Origin: Niabella sp. | GTDB lineage: Bacteria > Bacteroidota > Bacteroidia > Chitinophagales > Chitinophagaceae | Assembly: GCA_027493055.1 (NCBI GenBank) | Contig: JAPUDO010000087.1 | Coordinates: forward strand, 124,974-188,973 | DNA: 64,000 nt | Reading direction: 5' to 3' | Part shown: in pieces, positions 44,476 to 53,813 of the stretch | Position numbering within the stretch: position 1 is the first letter of the stretch | Layout: the number at the start of each line of letters is the position of its first letter | Translations under genes and position numbers: made by a program | Notes under the pieces: generated by a model | Told to the model about the DNA's origin: nothing | Seen by the model: only the letters and a program-made list of their open reading frames with translations | Database searches by the model: none

Positions 44476-47400
44476 TTATTTTATGATCAATAACCAGCCC
44501 CTGTTTTTTTCAACCGGAATTTCCTCTCCCGGTTTAAAAGTTTTAGCAGGCTGGAAGTTTTTAACCGGGGGAGCAGTTATTTCAGCCTTCGCAGCATCAA
44601 TGCCCAGCTTTTCCCAATCTATCATTAATTTAATATTGATATCGCTATCAGCCCAGCTTGCTATTGATACCAATACAGCGCCTTGCTTTTTATAAACAGT
44701 TGCCAGTACTTTGCCGTTATCCGTTTTTACAGGGCAACCAGGGCTCCAGTAACCGATCATTTCAGAACCTTCCATTCCAAAATCGTCCCAAAGTTTCCAG
44801 ATAGGCCGCGGATCTGCATTATTGCTCCAGGGCATACGGTTAGTCATCCCATACAACATGCCCCTCCAGGCATTACCGCCATCCTGCAGCATTTCACCCA
44901 TCAGGCCAAAAGGGATGCCGCTCACTTCGGTCAGGTAAAAATCAGGACCGTTTTTCTCATAGTCAAAATATTCACCAAACCATAAGCGGTTCAGGTAAGG
45001 GAAATGCTCCATGTACAGGTTGGCGCTATTATTAAATCCATCGCTTTTATTATACTGGTTGGCCGAATGCAGGTCTATAATTCCCGGGCGACCGTTTTGG
45101 GTAAGCACACGCTTGATTCGCTTCATGGTAATCCGGTCAAATGCTACATCATCCAGGTAAATGCCGTCAATACCTACATTTTTCACCAGCCAGTTCATTC
45201 CCTCCACATAATAATTATGCCAGCGACTCATGCCACTGTTTACAATAGCTGCATCTTTTATTTCCGGAACAAACCAGGCCGCTATGTAATCCCTGCCTAC
45301 ATGCTCCTGCAACCAGCTGAATCCGCCGCCCGGCCCCGGTGAATAAATTTCATGGCCCAGGCTTCTCAGGGGAAATGTTTCATAAGCTTTATTCGATAGC
45401 TCGCGGACCGTATTATATATTTTTACTTTTAATCCTAAAGCATGAGCGCTGTCGATATATCCCTTCATCTTCTTCCATTCAATAAAAGGATAGTTAATAT
45501 AAGGGTTGATAGGCGTAGCATGATGAATATTAACTACGGTAGCTCCTTTGGCTTTAATACTGTCGGGCTTATTATATTTATGATAAAAACGCGCCTGCCA
45601 CTGAAAATCTGTGTTGATAGTATGAAACGGTGTAATGAGCAGGTTAAAATTATAATACAGCGTATCTCCTTTTTTCATACTGCGCGGGCCATTATAAGCG
45701 TTTACCAAAACAGAGCTTCCTTTTTTAAATACATCTATACCTCCTTTATCACCATTACCCCATGAAGCCGGTAATAACAACGGTTTTTGCAGATAAAAAT
45801 TAGTGTTTAAAGGGCGAACATAATGTTCATCCCGAAGGGAAAATTGCAGGCCGGCATTTACACTTCCAATCCAGCCGCCATCCTGGTTTTTGTTAGCCAC
45901 GTCCCATTTCCATAAAACAGAATCAAGACGATAGCCTCCCTTTTGACCAAGCCCCATAAAATACCGGGCCATAGCCGGTAACACAGGAATATGGAAATTA
46001 ATATCGTTAAAACCCACGTCCTGCAAAGCGGTAAGCTTCACCGTGTAAGAAAGAAAGCCGTCAAACTCCAGCGTTGCATCTACTTTCATTTCCATAGCTG
46101 CGGATGTATTTACAGCCTGCCATTGAGCAGTCCCCGCATCTTTCCTTAAAAACTTTACGCCGCTGCTTTTCCATTGAACATCCTTCTTAGAGCTGCTTTC
46201 AATAAAATGGAAGTGAATCGGCTCTAACAACAGATTGTTGGGCGTTGTACCTATTGCTGTCATTTCCGGCGTGAAAAAGGTTTGTATCTGTGCAGGAAAC
46301 CCATCTTTGTTAATCAGCACTTTTCTTCCCAAAAGGGCAACAGAACTATCTGTAATTTGTAAAGGTGTATAAGGTGCTATTACTGTGTTATCCTGTGCCA
46401 GTGTTGAGTTAAGCCATTTTAGCCTGGTTTGCTTTTGCGGTTCATTAATGCCACTATCATTTAGCGTTTTATTTTTTACCACAATAGTAAGATGAACAGT
46501 TTGCGAAGCAGCACCATCCGCCTGCACAGTTACACGGCCTTTATAAATACCCGCAGCGGTATTGACAGGAATATCAACAGCGCACCACATAGGCTGAACC
46601 GTATTAGGTGCCACATTCACTGTTTTCATAAGGGGCATGCCTTTGTAATCTGTACCATTTGTATTTATGCAGGAAATATTTTTACTTGCGATTACGTTAC
46701 CACCGGCAGCTTTTAAGTCAGAAAAGTTAATCCGCACATTTTTCAGGTTCTGCAATGCATAAATGCCTAGTTGAAAAGTAAAGTATTCTCCCTTTGCAGC
46801 CGTGTCAGTAAAGCTATTTTTTATTCCTTGCTGCACCCATCTTTGCGGCAGGTATTCCGTCATTTTTACCGGATGCATACGATCTTCAGGAAACACTATA
46901 TAACCTTTGCTGCCTGCGGTTTTAACCAGCGCCGCAGTTTCATTCTTTGTGGCAATTATTTCCATGGGATAAAAACTGTTAAAAGCATCAATAGATTCGT
47001 ATGCTTTTGTATCAGCCCTCGCAAAAACCTTTCGTAACATGGTTTGCCTGATCCATGCATCATCCGCAGTCTCTGCAGGCGCCAGATACACCCCTTTGGG
47101 ATAATTGGAGCGCCCTTCATTTTTATACGGCATATAATACACAAAGTAAGTACCAGGCCCTGCAACAGGCTCAAACAACAGGCTGCCTGATTCATTATCT
47201 GCTTTCAGCACTTTATTATTGTTAACAGGCACTGCACCCTTTTCGGCAATAACAATTACCCGCTTTTCCCCGGGATCATCATCATGGCGGCGCCAGGGAA
47301 TAACAGCCTGGGCTACGCTCCTGTTTTTTGCAAACTCAGCAGCAGTAAGATGAAGGATAAAACGGTGATTCCCCAATGAGTCTGCGTTCCATTGGAGATT

Positions 47401-47478
47401 ACCGCTTGTATATTTGATGGGCTGCGCATTAACAACTACACAGAACAGCACTAACAACGTAAGAAAAGAATATTTCAT
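44476..47478 (-). CDS. Large secreted glycoside-hydrolase-like protein
   Basis: 1000 residues with a signal peptide (MKYSFLTLLVLFCVVVNAQ). An N-terminal region of beta-sandwich type is followed by a galactose-binding-like segment and a long C-terminal TIM-barrel region: GLKVKIYNTVRELSNKAYE, VGIDGIYLDDVAFDRITMKR, GRPGIIDLHSANQYNKSDG and WFGEYFDYEKNGPDFYLTEV. The Asp pair in YLDD and Glu in the later strand could be the catalytic acids. It resembles uncharacterised Bacteroidota GH-like proteins (DUF6067 type, moderate confidence). No SusCD pair lies in the window. Probably cuts a glycan outside or in the periplasm; substrate unknown. Confidence 0.8.
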   Translation of the reverse strand: MKYSFLTLLVLFCVVVNAQPIKYTSGNLQWNADSLGNHRFILHLTAAEFAKNRSVAQAVIPWRRHDDDPGEKRVIVIAEKGAVPVNNNKVLKADNESGSLLFEPVAGPGTYFVYYMPYKNEGRSNYPKGVYLAPAETADDAWIRQTMLRKVFARADTKAYESIDAFNSFYPMEIIATKNETAALVKTAGSKGYIVFPEDRMHPVKMTEYLPQRWVQQGIKNSFTDTAAKGEYFTFQLGIYALQNLKNVRINFSDLKAAGGNVIASKNISCINTNGTDYKGMPLMKTVNVAPNTVQPMWCAVDIPVNTAAGIYKGRVTVQADGAASQTVHLTIVVKNKTLNDSGINEPQKQTRLKWLNSTLAQDNTVIAPYTPLQITDSSVALLGRKVLINKDGFPAQIQTFFTPEMTAIGTTPNNLLLEPIHFHFIESSSKKDVQWKSSGVKFLRKDAGTAQWQAVNTSAAMEMKVDATLEFDGFLSYTVKLTALQDVGFNDINFHIPVLPAMARYFMGLGQKGGYRLDSVLWKWDVANKNQDGGWIGSVNAGLQFSLRDEHYVRPLNTNFYLQKPLLLPASWGNGDKGGIDVFKKGSSVLVNAYNGPRSMKKGDTLYYNFNLLITPFHTINTDFQWQARFYHKYNKPDSIKAKGATVVNIHHATPINPYINYPFIEWKKMKGYIDSAHALGLKVKIYNTVRELSNKAYETFPLRSLGHEIYSPGPGGGFSWLQEHVGRDYIAAWFVPEIKDAAIVNSGMSRWHNYYVEGMNWLVKNVGIDGIYLDDVAFDRITMKRIKRVLTQNGRPGIIDLHSANQYNKSDGFNNSANLYMEHFPYLNRLWFGEYFDYEKNGPDFYLTEVSGIPFGLMGEMLQDGGNAWRGMLYGMTNRMPWSNNADPRPIWKLWDDFGMEGSEMIGYWSPGCPVKTDNGKVLATVYKKQGAVLVSIASWADSDINIKLMIDWEKLGIDAAKAEITAPPVKNFQPAKTFKPGEEIPVEKNRGWLLIIK

Positions 47479-47629
47479 TCATTAAAATTATTGATGTATT
47501 GTGAAAACGAACAAAAATTTGTTAATCATTTGTAAAGAACGGCGCTCCTGTTTTTTAGATTTTTATAAATGAAAAAGATTGTTTACTTTAGAAATGCAAA
47601 CAAGCTTTTTTAACTTCAAAGAATTATTT

Positions 47630-47863
47630 ATGGAAACAACTAATATCGAATTTTCCCAGGATGAATTACAGGTAACCAGGTTAGATGACATTTCAGAAAC
47701 TGCCGGAGCTTACGACGGAGATGGTGATGGCGATGGAGACGGTGGCGCTGATGGCGGAGATGGCGCTGACGGAGATGGAGGAGCCGATGGCGATGGTGGC
47801 GCTGATGGGGACGGAGGAGCTGACGGAGATGGTGGTGCTGATGGAGATGGCACAGGAGCCTGA
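47630..47863 (+). CDS. Short peptide with Asp/Gly repeat tail, putative RiPP precursor
   Basis: 77 residues from the ATG giving METTNIEFSQDELQVTRLDD; an ATG 12 codons earlier is possible but lies directly after a promoter-like box (TACTTTAG). The first 30 residues form an ordinary acidic leader ending ISETAGAY. The rest is nearly pure Asp, Gly and Ala: five DG pairs, GADGGD, five GADGDG repeats and TGA. No Cys, Ser or Lys is in the tail and Thr occurs once. The repeats use different synonymous codons. A strong terminator follows, then oxygenase and ferredoxin genes. Alternatives are a Ca2+-binding or acidic surface peptide, since DGDGDG resembles calcium loops. Modification is inferred from the neighbours. 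Confidence 0.8.
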   Translation: METTNIEFSQDELQVTRLDDISETAGAYDGDGDGDGDGGADGGDGADGDGGADGDGGADGDGGADGDGGADGDGTGA

Positions 47864-47890
47864 TCATCCTGCTATTTAAACAAAACTTTA

Positions 47891-47929
47891 AAAAGCCGCA
47901 GTGAACATTTATTTTCTGCGGCTTTTTTT
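47891..47929 (+). terminator. Terminator after the Asp/Gly peptide gene
   Basis: AAAAGCCGCAG pairs with CTGCGGCTTTT across a 14-base loop, followed by T. It stands between the peptide and the enzyme genes, so read-through would give more peptide than enzyme. Confidence 0.88.
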
Positions 47930-48081
47930 GCATTTTGCATACTTCATAATAACCGATCATGAAATGAAGCATAAGAAAACATTCTCCTAAGGAGTCCTCT
48001 GGACATTCTCATACCCAAAAACAATGAATATTTTCTTATACGAAATTCCATCTGACAATTAAAAAAACAAAAAATAGACAG

Positions 48082-49263
48082 ATGAATCATTTTTTTAAAA
48101 ATATTGTAGCCCCCTGTTCTGTTGAAGACTTTTTTAACCAGTATCATGAAAAAGATATCCTGCATATAAAAAGGAATGATGAAACTTATTATAATAATAT
48201 CCTGACCTCACAAGAGATCTCCGATTACCTGGAACGGCAAGATATTTTCTATCCGTCGGTAAGGATCGTAAAAAACGGGAAAGAAATACCCCACGCAGAG
48301 TACACACTTAAAAGCACTCCAATTGGCCATCACCGCAAGGATGGTATCATTAATACAGATAAAGCATTTGCTCTTTTTAATAACGGGGCTACTTTTGTGA
48401 TACAGGCAGGACAAAGATATTTCAACAACCTTTCTCACTGCTGCTTACAACTCTCACAAAAATTCAATGCACCTGTTCAGGCTAATTTATATATTACTCC
48501 CGATAAATCCCAGGGCTTTAACCCGCACTGGGACACACACGATGTTTTTGTACTGCAGATCTCAGGCACTAAAACATGGCATTTATATGGATTTGAAAAA
48601 GAGCTGCCTACCAAAAACCAAACCTTTGTAAGCAAGGGTTATGAAAAAGAACCTATCCAGACTATCCAGCTATGCCCCGGCGACTTTTTGTATGTGCCCC
48701 GCGGCTATGTGCATGATGCTATAGCTGATGATGGCATTTCATCGCATATCACTATTGGCGTTCTGTCTTTTACATGGGCAAGGTATTTTAATGAGATCTT
48801 CCCTCAATTGGAAGAGTTCAAAATGTTCAGGGAAGCAGTTCCTTTCTGGAAAGAAGATCTCTCTTCCTTAATAAAAGAAAAAACAGAAGCGCTTAAACAA
48901 AAACTTTCAGCGCTTGATTTTGATAAAGGAATTGAAAGACTGAATAAAAATTACAGGGCGGCACAGCCACAACCGGTACATCATTACTTTGAAAGCATCC
49001 GTACAATAAGCAAACTTTCTCCCGGCACCAGGCTGGCTTTGAATGAAGGCGTCATTTACAACTTTGTTAAAAAAGAGGAGGGTAATGAGCTGCAGCTTTT
49101 AGGAAAAGCGATACAGTTTCCCGATACAGCAAAACCTGCGCTGGATTACATTTTCAACAATAAAAAATTCACTTTACAGGACCTGCCGGCAGCAACTGAT
49201 GCAGCAAAAGAGCTGGCCGTTCAACTTATCAGGGAAGGCGTTGTTTATATTGAAGAACTATAA
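48082..49263 (+). CDS. JmjC-type 2-oxoglutarate/Fe(II) oxygenase
   Basis: 393 residues. Cupin-like JmjC domain of the ribosomal-oxygenase (RoxA/YcfD, FIH) type. Fe ligands are His149 and Asp151 in FNPHWDTHDVFVLQISGTKT and His211 in YVPRGYVHDAI; TKTWHLYGF follows the usual pattern, and Lys in that strand may hold 2-oxoglutarate. The C-terminal part is a helical and winged region as in RoxA-like proteins. Such enzymes hydroxylate side chains of proteins, including Asn, Asp, Arg and His. The neighbouring Asp-rich peptide is an obvious candidate substrate, but this is inference. Its gene follows the peptide after a terminator and precedes the ferredoxin-like gene by 12 bases. Confidence 0.9.
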   Translation: MNHFFKNIVAPCSVEDFFNQYHEKDILHIKRNDETYYNNILTSQEISDYLERQDIFYPSVRIVKNGKEIPHAEYTLKSTPIGHHRKDGIINTDKAFALFNNGATFVIQAGQRYFNNLSHCCLQLSQKFNAPVQANLYITPDKSQGFNPHWDTHDVFVLQISGTKTWHLYGFEKELPTKNQTFVSKGYEKEPIQTIQLCPGDFLYVPRGYVHDAIADDGISSHITIGVLSFTWARYFNEIFPQLEEFKMFREAVPFWKEDLSSLIKEKTEALKQKLSALDFDKGIERLNKNYRAAQPQPVHHYFESIRTISKLSPGTRLALNEGVIYNFVKKEEGNELQLLGKAIQFPDTAKPALDYIFNNKKFTLQDLPAATDAAKELAVQLIREGVVYIEEL

Positions 49264-49275
49264 AAATAGTATTGT

Positions 49276-50172
49276 TTGGAGCATAACATCAATAAAGAGG
49301 TATTTTTTTGCAGCACCGCTTCCAGATATTTTAAGGAGCAGCTGAGTGGAACGGCGGCTAATTCGGAGGTGTTTATTCTCCTGGAACATTGTAACCCTTT
49401 TCCTGAAAAAGTAATGGAGGCCCATTTTGATAAAGAGTGGCTGCGCAGCATTCAGCGGCTGGCCAAATCGTACAAAGGCAAGGTGCTGCTTATCAGGAAT
49501 AACAAAACAAATTTTAAGGACTGCAAAATATCTTTTGTTGACTGTAATGCCTGCCGCTATTTTACTATAGAAACAGCTATAGAAAATACACCTTCTGTTC
49601 AATTAGCCGACTATATAGCGGATCCCCGTACAGCGTGGCAAACAGATCCTTTTTTTGTGATTTGCACCAATGGGAAAAAAGATAAATGTTGCGCCAAGTT
49701 CGGGTTCCCGGTATATAAATTTTTTGAATCGTTCAATGCTGATGTGAATGTATGGGAATGTTCACACGTAGGTGGAGACCGCTTTGCTGCCAATGCTGTA
49801 GCTATGCCTTTTGGCATTTATTATGGCCACGTTGCAGTAGAAGACGTGGGCCACATTATGGTAAGAACGCTCCTGCGGAAAATTTACAAAAACAAATTCC
49901 GTGGCTTATCGCGCCGTTCTTTTTACGAGCAGGCTATTGAATGTCACCTGCGCGAGCACCTGCAGAACTATGATATAGATTTTGAGATCCACACACATTT
50001 ACTGTATCATGAAGGAGATACCTATAAGGTAGACGTAACAACCAGCAATAATGGCCATTATATAATGGAGTTACTGAAGGAGCGAATCTCCTATCCGCAC
50101 CGGCTTACCTGCAAATCACAAAAGCAGGAGGACCTGTCAAAATTTAAACTGACAAGATTAGAAGCGATTTAA
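49276..50172 (+). CDS. Sucrase/ferredoxin-like [2Fe-2S] protein
   Basis: 298 residues, TTG start 12 bases after the oxygenase stop; no suitable ATG is nearby. The fold is the thioredoxin-like ferredoxin family (Suc_Fer-like). Cluster residues are likely in FVICTNGKKDKCCAKFG and VWECSHVGGDRFAANAVAMP. The N-terminus has FFCSTASRYFKEQLSGTA, as in the family. It could supply electrons to the upstream oxygenase, although 2-oxoglutarate enzymes normally need only ascorbate-like reductants. Transcribed with the JmjC gene. Confidence 0.85.
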   Translation: MEHNINKEVFFCSTASRYFKEQLSGTAANSEVFILLEHCNPFPEKVMEAHFDKEWLRSIQRLAKSYKGKVLLIRNNKTNFKDCKISFVDCNACRYFTIETAIENTPSVQLADYIADPRTAWQTDPFFVICTNGKKDKCCAKFGFPVYKFFESFNADVNVWECSHVGGDRFAANAVAMPFGIYYGHVAVEDVGHIMVRTLLRKIYKNKFRGLSRRSFYEQAIECHLREHLQNYDIDFEIHTHLLYHEGDTYKVDVTTSNNGHYIMELLKERISYPHRLTCKSQKQEDLSKFKLTRLEAI

Positions 50173-50177
50173 ACCAG

Positions 50178-51164
50178 CTACTCCAGCTCCTGCTCTATGG
50201 CTTTTATTACTTCCTCAAAATAATTAACATCATTCAGGCGGCAAGCGTGTCCCATACCTCCCGGACTGAATACATTTACTTCCATTAGCTTATCCCCAAC
50301 AATATCAAGACCCACCAGGAACATACCATCTTTAATGAGCTTATAGCTTACGGCATCTACAATATCTGATACCGCTCTGGTTATTTTAGGCACTGAAACA
50401 GATCCGCCCTGATGCAGGTTACTTCGTATATCACCGCTTGCCTGCGAACGGTGTATGGCCGCTATTTTACCATCTATCTCAATCGGCTTTCCATTCAGTA
50501 AAAACAAACGTATATCGCCTTTACTGGCTTTAGGCAGGTATTCCTGCGCAACAATATAACCATCACGGCCGATGGCGTCAACAATCTGGTTGAAATTCTG
50601 GTTCCTTTCATTCACCAGGAAAACATTCTTACCGCCCGAGCCTTGTAAAGGTTTTAAGATGATATTCTTTTTGTGTGCGGTATAGAAAGCTTTTATTTCC
50701 CCAATGTTTCTTGTAATAATCGTTTCAGGGCGTACACTTTCAGGAAAGTATTGAAAATACATTTTGTTTGCCGCTCTTCCCAGTATATCAGGGTTATTCA
50801 GTACCAGCACCCCGTTCTTTTTTGCCAGCTGGCCAAATACAATACCCGCATACTGGGCCCACGGCCTTTCCTCAAGGTCGATAGAGGGGTCATTACGCAG
50901 CATCAGCACATCCAGGTCTTTTGACTCAATGAGTTTCTTTTCTGCTTTAAAAACAGCATCCATAAAAACTTTAAGGCTCCTGAACTTTTTTGCCGGAGCT
51001 TTTTTAGCATGGGCTCCCATTTGTTCAGATGCCGTATAACTAAAGTCTGCTACTGCTATGTAATACACTTCATGTCCCATTTGCAATGCCTGTAAAGCCA
51101 GGCGTGTGGTAGTAAAAGAAGGCTCTTCTCTATCATAATCGTTAATAACAAAAGCTATTCGCAT
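50178..51164 (-). CDS. ATP-grasp ligase, glutathione-synthase-like
   Basis: 328 residues. N-terminal part (MRIAFVINDYDREEPSFTTT) as in GshB-type ligases, then the ATP-grasp domain: KNIILKPLQGSGGKNVFLV, IVAQEYLPKASKGDIRLF, HRSQASGDIRSNLHQGGSV and LVGLDIVGDKLMEVNVFSPG. GDIRSNLHQGG matches the substrate loop of glutathione synthases. It joins an acyl group to an amine through an acyl phosphate. Here it is last in an operon with DUF1704 and N-formylglutamate amidohydrolase. No gamma-glutamylcysteine synthetase is present, so glutathione itself is unlikely; the substrate is unknown. Confidence 0.9.
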   Translation of the reverse strand: MRIAFVINDYDREEPSFTTTRLALQALQMGHEVYYIAVADFSYTASEQMGAHAKKAPAKKFRSLKVFMDAVFKAEKKLIESKDLDVLMLRNDPSIDLEERPWAQYAGIVFGQLAKKNGVLVLNNPDILGRAANKMYFQYFPESVRPETIITRNIGEIKAFYTAHKKNIILKPLQGSGGKNVFLVNERNQNFNQIVDAIGRDGYIVAQEYLPKASKGDIRLFLLNGKPIEIDGKIAAIHRSQASGDIRSNLHQGGSVSVPKITRAVSDIVDAVSYKLIKDGMFLVGLDIVGDKLMEVNVFSPGGMGHACRLNDVNYFEEVIKAIEQELE

Positions 51165-51174
51165 ATATATTGTT

Positions 51175-53025
51175 TTAATGTTGGATCATTTTAAAAATAT
51201 TCCCGGCCTTTTTTATGCCTTCCAGCTTCTCTGTAAATGCGCCTGTCAGAAACCGGGGTGTTACAGGAGCTTCAAATAAAATATTCCGGTGTATCAATTC
51301 CTGAACTACCGGTAAATAATCTTCACGGATCTTACCAATCAATAAATGCTTCAGATCTTTACCCCTCTTGATATAGTCTATAATATTGAGAAAACCCTTC
51401 AGGTACACAGCATCTTTTGTAAGCCCGCCACCCCTGTACACCCTCATGCAAATATTAAATGCAGCATGATGTTCAAAAGCATATTTATCCGTAAGCAGGC
51501 CAAAAGTTTCTACAAAAGATTTGCCGCTGACCATTTCATGCGTAGCAACCACACGGGCCGCAAGCGTTCTCATACGGCTGCCGGTAAGTCCGCCGGTAAG
51601 ATATTCGGCTAACACCGCCAGGCCTTCCTGTAATTCCTCGTATCCCGGAACACCTATAGAAAACAGTTCCAGCGGCTGCGCTTTACCGTTGTAATAGGTT
51701 ACCACATGCGTTCCTACTTCATGCTGTAACAATGACACTGCTCTTTTGGGAGATACGCTAAAGCCTGAATTAATATTAAGCACCCCTTTTGACACCAATA
51801 CCCCTTCCACATCATCCGCAATGCGGATATTGGTTGAAATGCTTTTATCCTGCGTGCGCAGCCATTTCAGTTCTTTCCTGGCAAGCTGTGCAAACCCCGA
51901 AGCATTTAATCTTTTGGATCCCGCCACCGGCGTCCTGACCACATCTATAGCAACCAGCAGCGCTTTTGCCATATCTAACAGCTGCTCACTAACGGGACCA
52001 AACAACTGCAGGCTGCTTAACATAAAATCATGCTTTTCTCTCTCCTGCATCATGTTCAGCATCCGATCAATCTCTTTCCGCTTATCCCTGAACAGGAACG
52101 CAATAGTAGGATCTGTAATATCTTCAACCGGCAGGTTGTATATCTTACGCTTAATGATCTCAGGATCTACCGGCATAGGCCTGTAATGGAATACAGGATC
52201 TTTTGAATAATGGTCCTGTTTAAATTGCTGCCATGCCTCATTTACGTTAATGGGCGTTACCAGCATTAAAAAGTCGAACAGCTTGGTGTAAGCCGCAAGC
52301 TCTCTGTCTATCTCTCTTGCCTTATCATCAATAATGGTAGTCCCCAGCATTTGAAAGTGGGACGTAATAAAGGTAGTTTGTAACCGTATAAATTCAAAAA
52401 AGCTTTTACGTAAAGCCTTGCTGTAGCCGGCTCTTAATTCACGCAGGAATAGAGGATAGGCTTTCCCGGTAACCTCGTTTATGTATACCGGTGCAATTTC
52501 TATTCCCATCAAGGTAATACCCTCTTTTTCCAGCTGCTCTTTCTCCAGCAAAGCTTTCATTCCAGGCGGCGCTGCAGGCGTTTCCTGCTTTTTTAATACA
52601 GAAGTTTTGCCCCAGGAATGAACAGGAATTTTACCAAGCTCAGTATCTAATTTACGCGCGGTGGCAACAGCGCTCTTTTGGCTTATATATATAGTAAAGG
52701 GTGAGCGGTAAGCCAGTGGAATTTGCCAGGCTTCCACCAGCAGGAACCCTTTGAACTTATCAAAGAAAACGCGGGTCACTAACTGTACTATTTCCCGTAA
52801 CAAGCCATCAGGGCTGTCCTCTGCTATAAGGTAAGCAGATTCTGTTTTACCCAGGCGTCCGGGAAAATAATCCTTCCCTCCTGTTAAGCGATATACCAAT
52901 AAAAAAGGAACCGGCTTTTCTATTTTCAGAATGCCATTACCAGGCAGGCTGATATGTATAGGCTCTGCCTTTTTCAGCTTGTCCTGTAACCTGTTCAATA
53001 TTTTCTGGCTGGTATCCGTCATCAT
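51175..53025 (-). CDS. DUF1704 / QEGLA-family metallopeptidase-like protein
   Basis: 616 residues. The family is known in databases as the 'flavohemoglobin expression-modulating QEGLA motif' group and as DUF1704, the same family as the eukaryotic tyrosine carboxypeptidase MATCAP. HEVGTH (residues 435-440) supplies the zinc ligands and catalytic Glu, and QEGLA (466-470) gives another acid. About 400 N-terminal residues are helical. A carboxypeptidase activity is thus plausible; it has not been shown for this protein. It overlaps the amidohydrolase gene by four bases (ATGA) and leads the ligase gene by ten, so the three are translationally linked. Confidence 0.88.
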   Translation of the reverse strand: MMTDTSQKILNRLQDKLKKAEPIHISLPGNGILKIEKPVPFLLVYRLTGGKDYFPGRLGKTESAYLIAEDSPDGLLREIVQLVTRVFFDKFKGFLLVEAWQIPLAYRSPFTIYISQKSAVATARKLDTELGKIPVHSWGKTSVLKKQETPAAPPGMKALLEKEQLEKEGITLMGIEIAPVYINEVTGKAYPLFLRELRAGYSKALRKSFFEFIRLQTTFITSHFQMLGTTIIDDKAREIDRELAAYTKLFDFLMLVTPINVNEAWQQFKQDHYSKDPVFHYRPMPVDPEIIKRKIYNLPVEDITDPTIAFLFRDKRKEIDRMLNMMQEREKHDFMLSSLQLFGPVSEQLLDMAKALLVAIDVVRTPVAGSKRLNASGFAQLARKELKWLRTQDKSISTNIRIADDVEGVLVSKGVLNINSGFSVSPKRAVSLLQHEVGTHVVTYYNGKAQPLELFSIGVPGYEELQEGLAVLAEYLTGGLTGSRMRTLAARVVATHEMVSGKSFVETFGLLTDKYAFEHHAAFNICMRVYRGGGLTKDAVYLKGFLNIIDYIKRGKDLKHLLIGKIREDYLPVVQELIHRNILFEAPVTPRFLTGAFTEKLEGIKKAGNIFKMIQH

Positions 53026-53813
53026 TTTACGATTGGGTTCCTGCTCTTTATTTCTTTGGACAAAAAGCCTACCGATAACGCGAGCAGCTGTTTCAGCCCG
53101 TTTATATGTGGTATATTAGCTATGCCCGTCCATTCATCCATGAATGTTTTTTTGAATTCAACTGAAAATACGGCACCATATTCGCCATAATGTTCAATGA
53201 CCCACCGGGCAAATGCACCACCTTTAAAAATAATATTTTGCCGGGCATCTGTTTTATGATCCAATGCATCTGCTTTTGCAAAAAAATTTGTTAAGCGGTT
53301 ACATAGCCCCTGCCACTTCTTCCCGTTATATGCGGTACCCATATTTATTTCAGGATGGGTTAGGGCATCAGCTTCTGTATAAGGATTTTCCCGGCGATGA
53401 TTATAGGAATGCACATCAAGAATAAAAAAACAGCCGTGTTCTTTTATTGCGGCTTCAATTATACCAGCAACAGCATCGTAAAATAAATCATAATCTTTAT
53501 GGAGCTTACGGATAGCACCCGCAGGTAAGTCATTCCAGACATTTAACCCCCACGCATCTTCCGGTTTTAAATAAATAGCTTTATCCTTTGTCCTGTTCAG
53601 GTCAAGCTGAAAGCGCGAAGTATGTACCACCACTTTACTGACAGGAAGATCAGCGATCATGTATCCTGTATAAGGATCTTCCTCACGGGAACGGCCCTGT
53701 TCACCCAGCAGAAGGTAATCGTGCAAGGTATTGTCAATGAAATGCCCGTCGTGGAGCGCAAAAGCGATCACAGGAGTTGCTTTATCATCAATGCTGAAAA
53801 ATGGGGGGCTCAT
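53022..53813 (-). CDS. N-formylglutamate amidohydrolase family protein
   Basis: 263 residues. Zinc metallohydrolase fold as in histidine-degradation HutG and relatives. Motifs are FALHDGHFIDNTLHDYLL, VVHTSRFQLDLNR, CFFILDVHSYNHRRENPY and AVFSVEFKKTFMDEWTG. No histidine-utilisation genes are near, so it probably cleaves an amide bond of another small molecule or a C-terminal modification. It overlaps DUF1704 by four bases and lies 106 bases after the LuxR-type gene. Confidence 0.87.
   Translation of the reverse strand: MSPPFFSIDDKATPVIAFALHDGHFIDNTLHDYLLLGEQGRSREEDPYTGYMIADLPVSKVVVHTSRFQLDLNRTKDKAIYLKPEDAWGLNVWNDLPAGAIRKLHKDYDLFYDAVAGIIEAAIKEHGCFFILDVHSYNHRRENPYTEADALTHPEINMGTAYNGKKWQGLCNRLTNFFAKADALDHKTDARQNIIFKGGAFARWVIEHYGEYGAVFSVEFKKTFMDEWTGIANIPHINGLKQLLALSVGFLSKEIKSRNPIVK

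Follow-up and report, generated by a model that had tools for sequence, protein, structure and literature searches.

In biphenomycin-type ribosomally synthesized and post-translationally modified peptides (RiPPs), the JmjC-domain enzyme BipG/BpmG hydroxylates Orn, according to the sections of PMC12707348 and PMC12257519 that treat it. A passage of PMC12710340 describes RiPP recognition element (RRE)-like domains fused to JmjC domains of family PF08007 in eukaryotes, with bacterial homologues (about 30 % identity) in RiPP-like contexts. Beta-hydroxylation of Asp in RiPP precursors has been reported, in the portions of the papers concerned, for the multinuclear non-heme iron-dependent oxidative enzyme (MNIO) PesHI (PMC13060819) and for SmaO, as cited in PMC13097080. 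Here we compare with these systems a locus of a Niabella sp., found in a window that is the whole 64,000-nucleotide stretch of contig JAPUDO010000087.1 that was analysed, in which a gene for a small Asp/Gly repeat peptide precedes genes for a JmjC oxygenase and a Suc_Fer-like protein. Niabella is a genus of soil bacteria. The locus comprises:

47630-47863, forward strand: peptide gene, ATG at 47630, stop codon ending at 47863; 77 amino acids
47630-47713, forward strand: putative leader part, residues 1-28 (METTNIEFSQDELQVTRLDDISETAGAY), from the alignment of 15 distinct Niabella peptides
47714-47863, forward strand: Asp/Gly/Ala repeat tail (putative core), residues 29-77 plus stop codon, with the period-6 unit GGADGD
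47890-47927, forward strand: terminator-like hairpin followed by a U-run, in the gap between the peptide and JmjC genes; -18.6 kcal/mol, z -4.99
48082-49263, forward strand: JmjC oxygenase, PF08007 (JmjC_2) by Pfam, 393 amino acids
49276-50172, forward strand: Suc_Fer-like (PF06999 by Pfam) thioredoxin-like protein, 298 amino acids, TTG start, beginning 12 nt past the JmjC stop codon

As with BipG/BpmG and the related cupin-like PbsQ, an Fe(II)/2-oxoglutarate (2OG) enzyme and a ribosomal precursor are encoded in one cluster. In the sections cited above, however, BipG/BpmG acts on one Orn of a short core and is accompanied by many other enzymes, whereas in Niabella the tail is built of Asp/Gly repeats and, apart from the JmjC gene, a Suc_Fer-like gene alone is conserved alongside. 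The PF08007 proteins of PMC12710340 share the Pfam domain, and the passage on them names no substrate, Asp-rich precursor or Suc_Fer partner. PesHI and SmaO, as presented in those excerpts, place beta-hydroxyAsp in a precursor, as we propose for the Niabella tail; PesH is nevertheless an MNIO rather than a JmjC enzyme, and PesA2 is hydroxylated at a single Asp and not along a repeat tail (PMC13060819, same excerpt). By sequence and fold the best matches to the Niabella JmjC protein are NO66, MINA53 and YcfD (RoxA), whose targets are His or Arg residues of ribosomal proteins, while the Niabella tail has neither residue. A first, sequence-only reading of the locus knew of no described system of this composition. 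For the peptide type this held, since the open-licence PMC literature searched yielded no precursor of Asp/Gly repeats accompanied by a JmjC enzyme and a Suc_Fer partner. It did not hold for the enzyme: PF08007 JmjC proteins have already been published from RiPP-like contexts (PMC12710340, passage as above), and the Asp/Gly repeat peptide type would be the new element.

We propose, with moderate confidence, that a RiPP-type modified peptide is produced here: the JmjC enzyme would hydroxylate Asp beta-carbons, perhaps aided by its Suc_Fer partner, to give a product suited to binding hard metals. The small gene would yield, in excess, a leader joined to an Asp/Gly repeat tail, with the hairpin passing only part of transcription to the enzyme genes. 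The JmjC enzyme, using Fe(II), O2 and 2OG and having a NO66/MINA53/RoxA-like fold, would recognise the leader, perhaps via its C-terminal winged-helix-like domain, and would repeatedly hydroxylate the beta-carbons of the 14-18 tail Asp residues. The Suc_Fer-like protein would be a redox partner specific to this system, which either returns the JmjC iron to its reduced state or works on the product once metal is bound, and that product would be a chain of carboxylates and beta-hydroxy-acids fit for hard metal ions (Ca2+ or Fe3+). On genomic grounds, action of the JmjC enzyme on the peptide is well supported; the peptide is likely its substrate; Asp is the probable site of hydroxylation, with Ala, Ser, Thr and Gly as alternatives; and metal binding by the product is speculative. 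Asp is the most likely site because His, Arg and Lys are absent from all 15 Niabella tails. If the tail is hydroxylated, the locus would be a minimal RiPP system, with one peptide, one oxygenase and one Suc_Fer-like protein giving many copies of one modification. Asp would then join His, Arg and Orn among the targets of the NO66/MINA53/RoxA-like group, and the locus would offer a simple model of repeated hydroxylation along one chain.

The 77-residue product with a normal leader and an Asp, Gly and Ala tail, as first described, was borne out: the leader has 28 residues and the tail (residues 29-77) 49, namely 24 Gly, 17 Asp, 7 Ala and one other. The putative border after residue 28 is read from the alignment, which leaves out L001 (the window), L016 and L018 (taken as the same as L003 and L005). 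In the 15 aligned peptides M1, E2, V15 and R17 of the leader are invariant, T16 occurs in at least 90 %, and all share an xLxVTR-like motif preceded by an acidic patch. Their lengths run from 63 to 82 residues, with 14-18 Asp per tail and variable unit number and Ala/Ser content, so that the leader is conserved while the repeat number varies, which is the pattern that the first reading had proposed to look for. The short precursor, conserved leader, distinct core and adjacent JmjC gene are the features by which a RiPP locus is recognised. A degenerate DNA pattern for DGDGGADGDG occurred in 2 of 296 Bacteroidota genomes, the source genome and another member of the genus; all eight places lay in the peptide gene or its orthologue, and the reversed control pattern gave none. 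The Asp/Gly repeat peptide gene is not a product of chance. In seven sample orthologue pairs, each within one clade, the proportion of silent differences (pS) in the tail was 0.66-0.79 and that of amino-acid-changing differences (pN) 0-0.09; the corresponding leader values were 0.48-0.96 and 0.09-0.22. Over all within-clade pairs the tail codon differences were 368 silent to 61 amino-acid in clade A and 715 to 46 in clade B. The low pN relative to pS indicates that selection keeps the repeat within each clade, while the two clades differ from each other. TrAA12, ClfA, SdrC and ClfB, the only Pfam/NCBIfam matches of the peptide, were rejected as its family; all were below cutoff and seemingly driven by composition.

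The first reading had the three genes as a candidate operon. They do lie on one strand with the peptide first, but the terminator-like hairpin splits the peptide from the enzymes, and the locus is therefore not a plain three-gene operon. The hairpin recurs in relatives, with z scores of -3.80 (L013) and -5.06 (L005), and the L013 stem is preserved despite changes on both arms. An inverted repeat with a T-run stands at a constant position in both Niabella clades (6 and 9 sequences). A hairpin placed after the peptide gene would fit a precursor made in larger amounts than its enzymes, and so we infer an excess of peptide. Upstream of the gene lies one further element:

47584-47591, forward strand: candidate promoter -7-like element TACTTTAG, matching TA[CT]TTT[AG], which is present in 6/6 clade A upstream sequences

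We take this element to resemble the Bacteroidota -7 consensus. No Rfam element reached the gathering score in 47400-50300.

The trio is inherited together. Among 394 genomes of the family, strong matches to the JmjC protein were confined to nine same-genus genomes, all nine of which also carry the peptide and Suc_Fer genes; the remaining matches were one at 28 % identity (G136) and five weak partial ones. G189, the one same-genus genome listed as lacking JmjC, has neither of the other genes, so that the trio is complete in 9/10 sampled Niabella genomes and wholly absent from 1/10. In eight Niabella contigs from the GTDB collection, two of them from genomes already counted and six further, the peptide gene is upstream of JmjC and the Suc_Fer gene downstream (L009 retains only Suc_Fer fragments). 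The sequence-only reading had asked for the trio in other genomes, and it proved to be present across the genus; a JmjC-ferredoxin pair without the peptide, which would have told against that reading, was not seen among the Niabella genomes and contigs examined. The window and the eight contigs fall into two neighbourhoods: one clade has a GH123 gene (by Pfam in the window) upstream, the other a glutaminyl-tRNA-synthetase-like gene (by eye). The JmjC genes of L002, L008 and L009 are frame-broken in the assemblies and were left unmended and excluded from the tree discussed below.

This distribution bears on the possibility that the Asp-rich peptide stays unmodified and buffers metal, and that the neighbouring oxygenase has another substrate, for example a ribosomal protein. 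The closest characterised structures are indeed ribosomal-protein hydroxylases, and unmodified Asp/Gly repeats are able to bind Ca2+. A ribosomal hydroxylase would, however, be expected family-wide and not in nine genomes of one genus, one relative at 28 % identity and five weak partial matches. The co-inheritance of the trio in two neighbourhoods, the parallel pair in Acidobacteriota and the occurrence of relatives in RiPP-type loci, both described below, also speak against an unmodified buffer, which we consider quite improbable.

On the minus strand of the window, at 50178-53813, is a set comprising a glutathione-synthetase-like ATP-grasp gene, a QEGLA/MATCAP peptidase gene (PF08014) and an N-formylglutamate amidohydrolase-like gene. 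It was considered as a part of the system and rejected: it adjoins the trio in the window, L008 and L009 and not in L002 to L007 (by eye).

The oxygenase matches PF08007 with E 7.8e-28 (97 bits against a cutoff of 22). Its HxD...H iron ligands are intact, as originally claimed: H149, D151 and H211, together with K164, are invariant in seven aligned sequences, window included, and all four align with NO66 residues. The Lys equivalent to K164 binds 2OG. The proposed FIH/RoxA type calls for a correction. Both phmmer and Foldseek placed NO66, MINA53 and YcfD (RoxA) nearest, then YxbC, with FIH far behind; FIH-type assignment was rejected, as FIH is not in the 16 phmmer rows and appears in Foldseek from rank 41 downward only. 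YxbC is titled 'putative asparaginyl hydroxylase' and is a weaker match than NO66, MINA53 and YcfD. The PDB titles of the closest solved enzymes name them as histidine or arginine hydroxylases, and those of NO66 and MINA53 add lysine demethylase. The AlphaFold2 model has a moderate mean confidence score (pLDDT 69.9), with residues 317-390 forming four strands, a helix, a short strand, a helix and a strand. NO66-type enzymes also have a C-terminal domain of this kind.

The third protein is of the sucrase/ferredoxin-like type, as first read, with a PF06999 match above cutoff (E 6e-23, 82.3 bits against 34.9). Proteins of the Suc_Fer family contain Fe-S centres. C130-x7-C138-C139 and H164-VGGDRFAAN are invariant in eight aligned sequences, window included. 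A search of PDB sequences gave zero matches, and the AlphaFold2 model (mean pLDDT 52) was set aside. Outside the genus, 294 family genomes held one weak match (G082, E 7.9e-7, residues 34-100), and no Suc_Fer-like gene was found in the non-Niabella JmjC loci examined, many of which have short flanks. Co-inheritance within Niabella is thus a weak pointer to a helper role. A dedicated Suc_Fer partner also hints at chemistry past the usual coupled cycle, and the JmjC enzyme could modify the peptide otherwise, by desaturation, by crosslinking, by taking Asp onward to aminomalonate, or by hydroxylating Ser, Thr, Ala or Gly. Oxygenases of RiPP loci are reported to do more than hydroxylate: SmaO/SmaX convert Asp to beta-hydroxyAsp and then to aminomalonic acid (as cited in the excerpt of PMC13097080), and 2OG-dependent macrocyclization of RiPPs is named by a title in the reference list of PMC12710340. 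Set against this, the closest solved enzymes bear titles that call them hydroxylases, if in some cases also demethylases, and BipG is a hydroxylase (PMC12707348, section as above); we rate such other chemistry as unlikely. Taken together, the original interpretation of the locus is partly supported.

Beyond Bacteroidota, the JmjC protein had matches at E 1e-30 or better in 12 of 297 Acidobacteriota genomes (14 genes), and G776 adds one. Next to thirteen of these 15 genes is one that combines a twin-arginine translocation (Tat)-like signal (RRSF, RRSY or RQSF, by eye) with a tail that bears Asp. The 13 comprise the genes of ten close genomes, where the number of DSDG or TDSDQ-type units varies, the second G775 gene, G1033 and G853. 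The neighbours suggest export by the Tat route in Acidobacteriota, whereas in Niabella no route is visible. As a control we counted DxD motifs: at least five in 40 residues were found near JmjC in 6/31 loci, all Niabella or acidobacterial, against 0/182 control windows, and at least three in 9/31 against 2/182. The 31 loci are not independent, and near JmjC two windows were scored and the better value kept. The acidobacterial counterpart provides a test of peptide export, a hydroxy-acid array would suggest a metal-binding role, and a PF08007 JmjC gene adjoining a DxD-repeat peptide is a search handle for further members.

Several observations weigh against our proposal that Asp of the tail is hydroxylated by an enzyme recognising the leader. 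Within this JmjC group we know of no enzyme that acts on Asp. An hhalign comparison of JmjC C-terminal domains found no match to one PqqD-like RRE (the probability was 0.3 %). Over all pairs between the two Niabella clades, tail differences numbered 529 amino-acid to 1035 silent codons. By eye, neither Niabella neighbourhood shows an export signal or a conserved transporter or protease beside the trio; some RiPPs also lack local genes for leader removal and export. Both G1014 JmjC genes are without a Tat-like/Asp-bearing neighbour. The acidobacterial neighbours were recognised partly post hoc: the composition filter flagged 6 of 10 close homologues, and the remainder came from a looser motif search set after those six, with G853 added after extra flank. 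At most two DxD were counted in 22/31 loci, repeats near JmjC being absent or weak beyond the Niabella and acidobacterial groups. Finally, the JmjC tree (47 rows) keeps these two groups apart, with weak deep forks and flagged long branches, and the Asp-rich tails of Niabella and Acidobacteriota may be convergent. In that tree L036 (the G661 JmjC, with two stops) entered as a 288-residue piece, G853 (JmjC in two frames) was excluded, and some Streptomyces rows have over-long starts.

The tree thus raises the question of whether the acidobacterial Tat-like/Asp-rich genes are unrelated to the Niabella peptides, the Asp tails having arisen twice. Leaders differ (Tat-like in Acidobacteriota, none such in Niabella), as do the repeat units (TDSDQA or DSDGSDAAPA against GGADGD), in line with the failure of the JmjC groups to unite across weak deep forks. 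What the two groups nevertheless share is a neighbouring JmjC gene, DxD repeats that vary, and acidic residues ahead of the tail (LTDEDITTVR and NEDELQVTR, by eye). We regard two origins as a serious possibility that falls short of an even chance; it is compatible with hydroxylation of the Niabella tail, and convergence on one tail type would itself favour a common JmjC chemistry. A broader proposal is a family of ribosomally encoded, metal-binding poly-(beta-hydroxyaspartyl) peptides that stay in the cytosol in Niabella and leave the cell by the Tat route in Acidobacteriota. A RoxA-like JmjC enzyme would convert a DxD repeat to an array of ligands for hard metals, and the Suc_Fer-like Fe-S protein would either load the metal or reduce it; the peptides would be a ribosomal counterpart of hydroxyaspartate siderophores. 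In this full form we think it unlikely.

Some acidobacterial neighbours offer a thin lead toward a metal role. PepSY_TM genes stand beside the peptide gene in G982 and, by eye, in G936, and no PepSY_TM or imelysin neighbour was seen by eye in G776, G853 or G1033. A PepSY_TM gene follows the Tat-like/Asp-repeat gene closely 3' on the same strand at L080:7333-8769 (Pfam) and L081:4323-5754 (by eye). The G775 JmjC gene is followed directly, at L010:7168-11048, by a pair of imelysin (M75) genes and a gene for a di-haem oxidoreductase, with none by eye in G776.

JmjC relatives at 28-38 % identity were located in other RiPP-like loci, several of them recognised by eye. Among the six Bacteroidota relatives outside the genus (L031-L036), L031 contains a gene for a lasso-type Asn synthetase (PF00733) along with a precursor-like gene whose lasso match is sub-cutoff, L035 has a precursor with a nitrile hydratase-like leader peptide (NHLP; TIGR03793, above cutoff), and L032, L033, L034 and L036 look RiPP-like by eye only. 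The JmjC gene of G1033 is accompanied by a peptide with DSDTG repeats and an MvdC/D-like ATP-grasp (sub-cutoff). Twelve of the 126 plasmid records with a JmjC match were examined, and there relatives lie near LanM, an NHLP secretion gene and radical SAM genes; one on a Streptomyces clavuligerus plasmid is near a 48-residue peptide ending DNDPSDPPIAIADPDPFDPVI.

Further details of these loci were noted. The lasso-type cluster at L031:4996-10457, with JmjC at its end and a PqqD-like gene by eye, holds two near-identical 54-residue precursor-like genes, each ending GVGSDGGIADCSLS. L032:4798-7608, with a tandem JmjC pair, a methyltransferase gene and a small gene reading ...KVWGGNDGGTPTNPNDANGG..., is possibly an undescribed RiPP locus. 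L082:5980-9095 (G1033), where the JmjC gene, the Tat-like DSDTG peptide and the MvdC/D-like ATP-grasp are joined by a further precursor-like open reading frame (ORF), is possibly a JmjC-tailored graspetide locus. On Streptomyces/Pseudonocardia plasmids L067-L069 and L071, cupin/JmjC genes adjoin aldo/keto reductase genes, and in L067 and L068 tiny peptides ending SDGND stand by the cupin/JmjC genes. In L065, L066 and L070 the cupin genes come in pairs, together with M13 peptidase genes and with tiny ORFs that end in YVNIQ or YHVNIQ.

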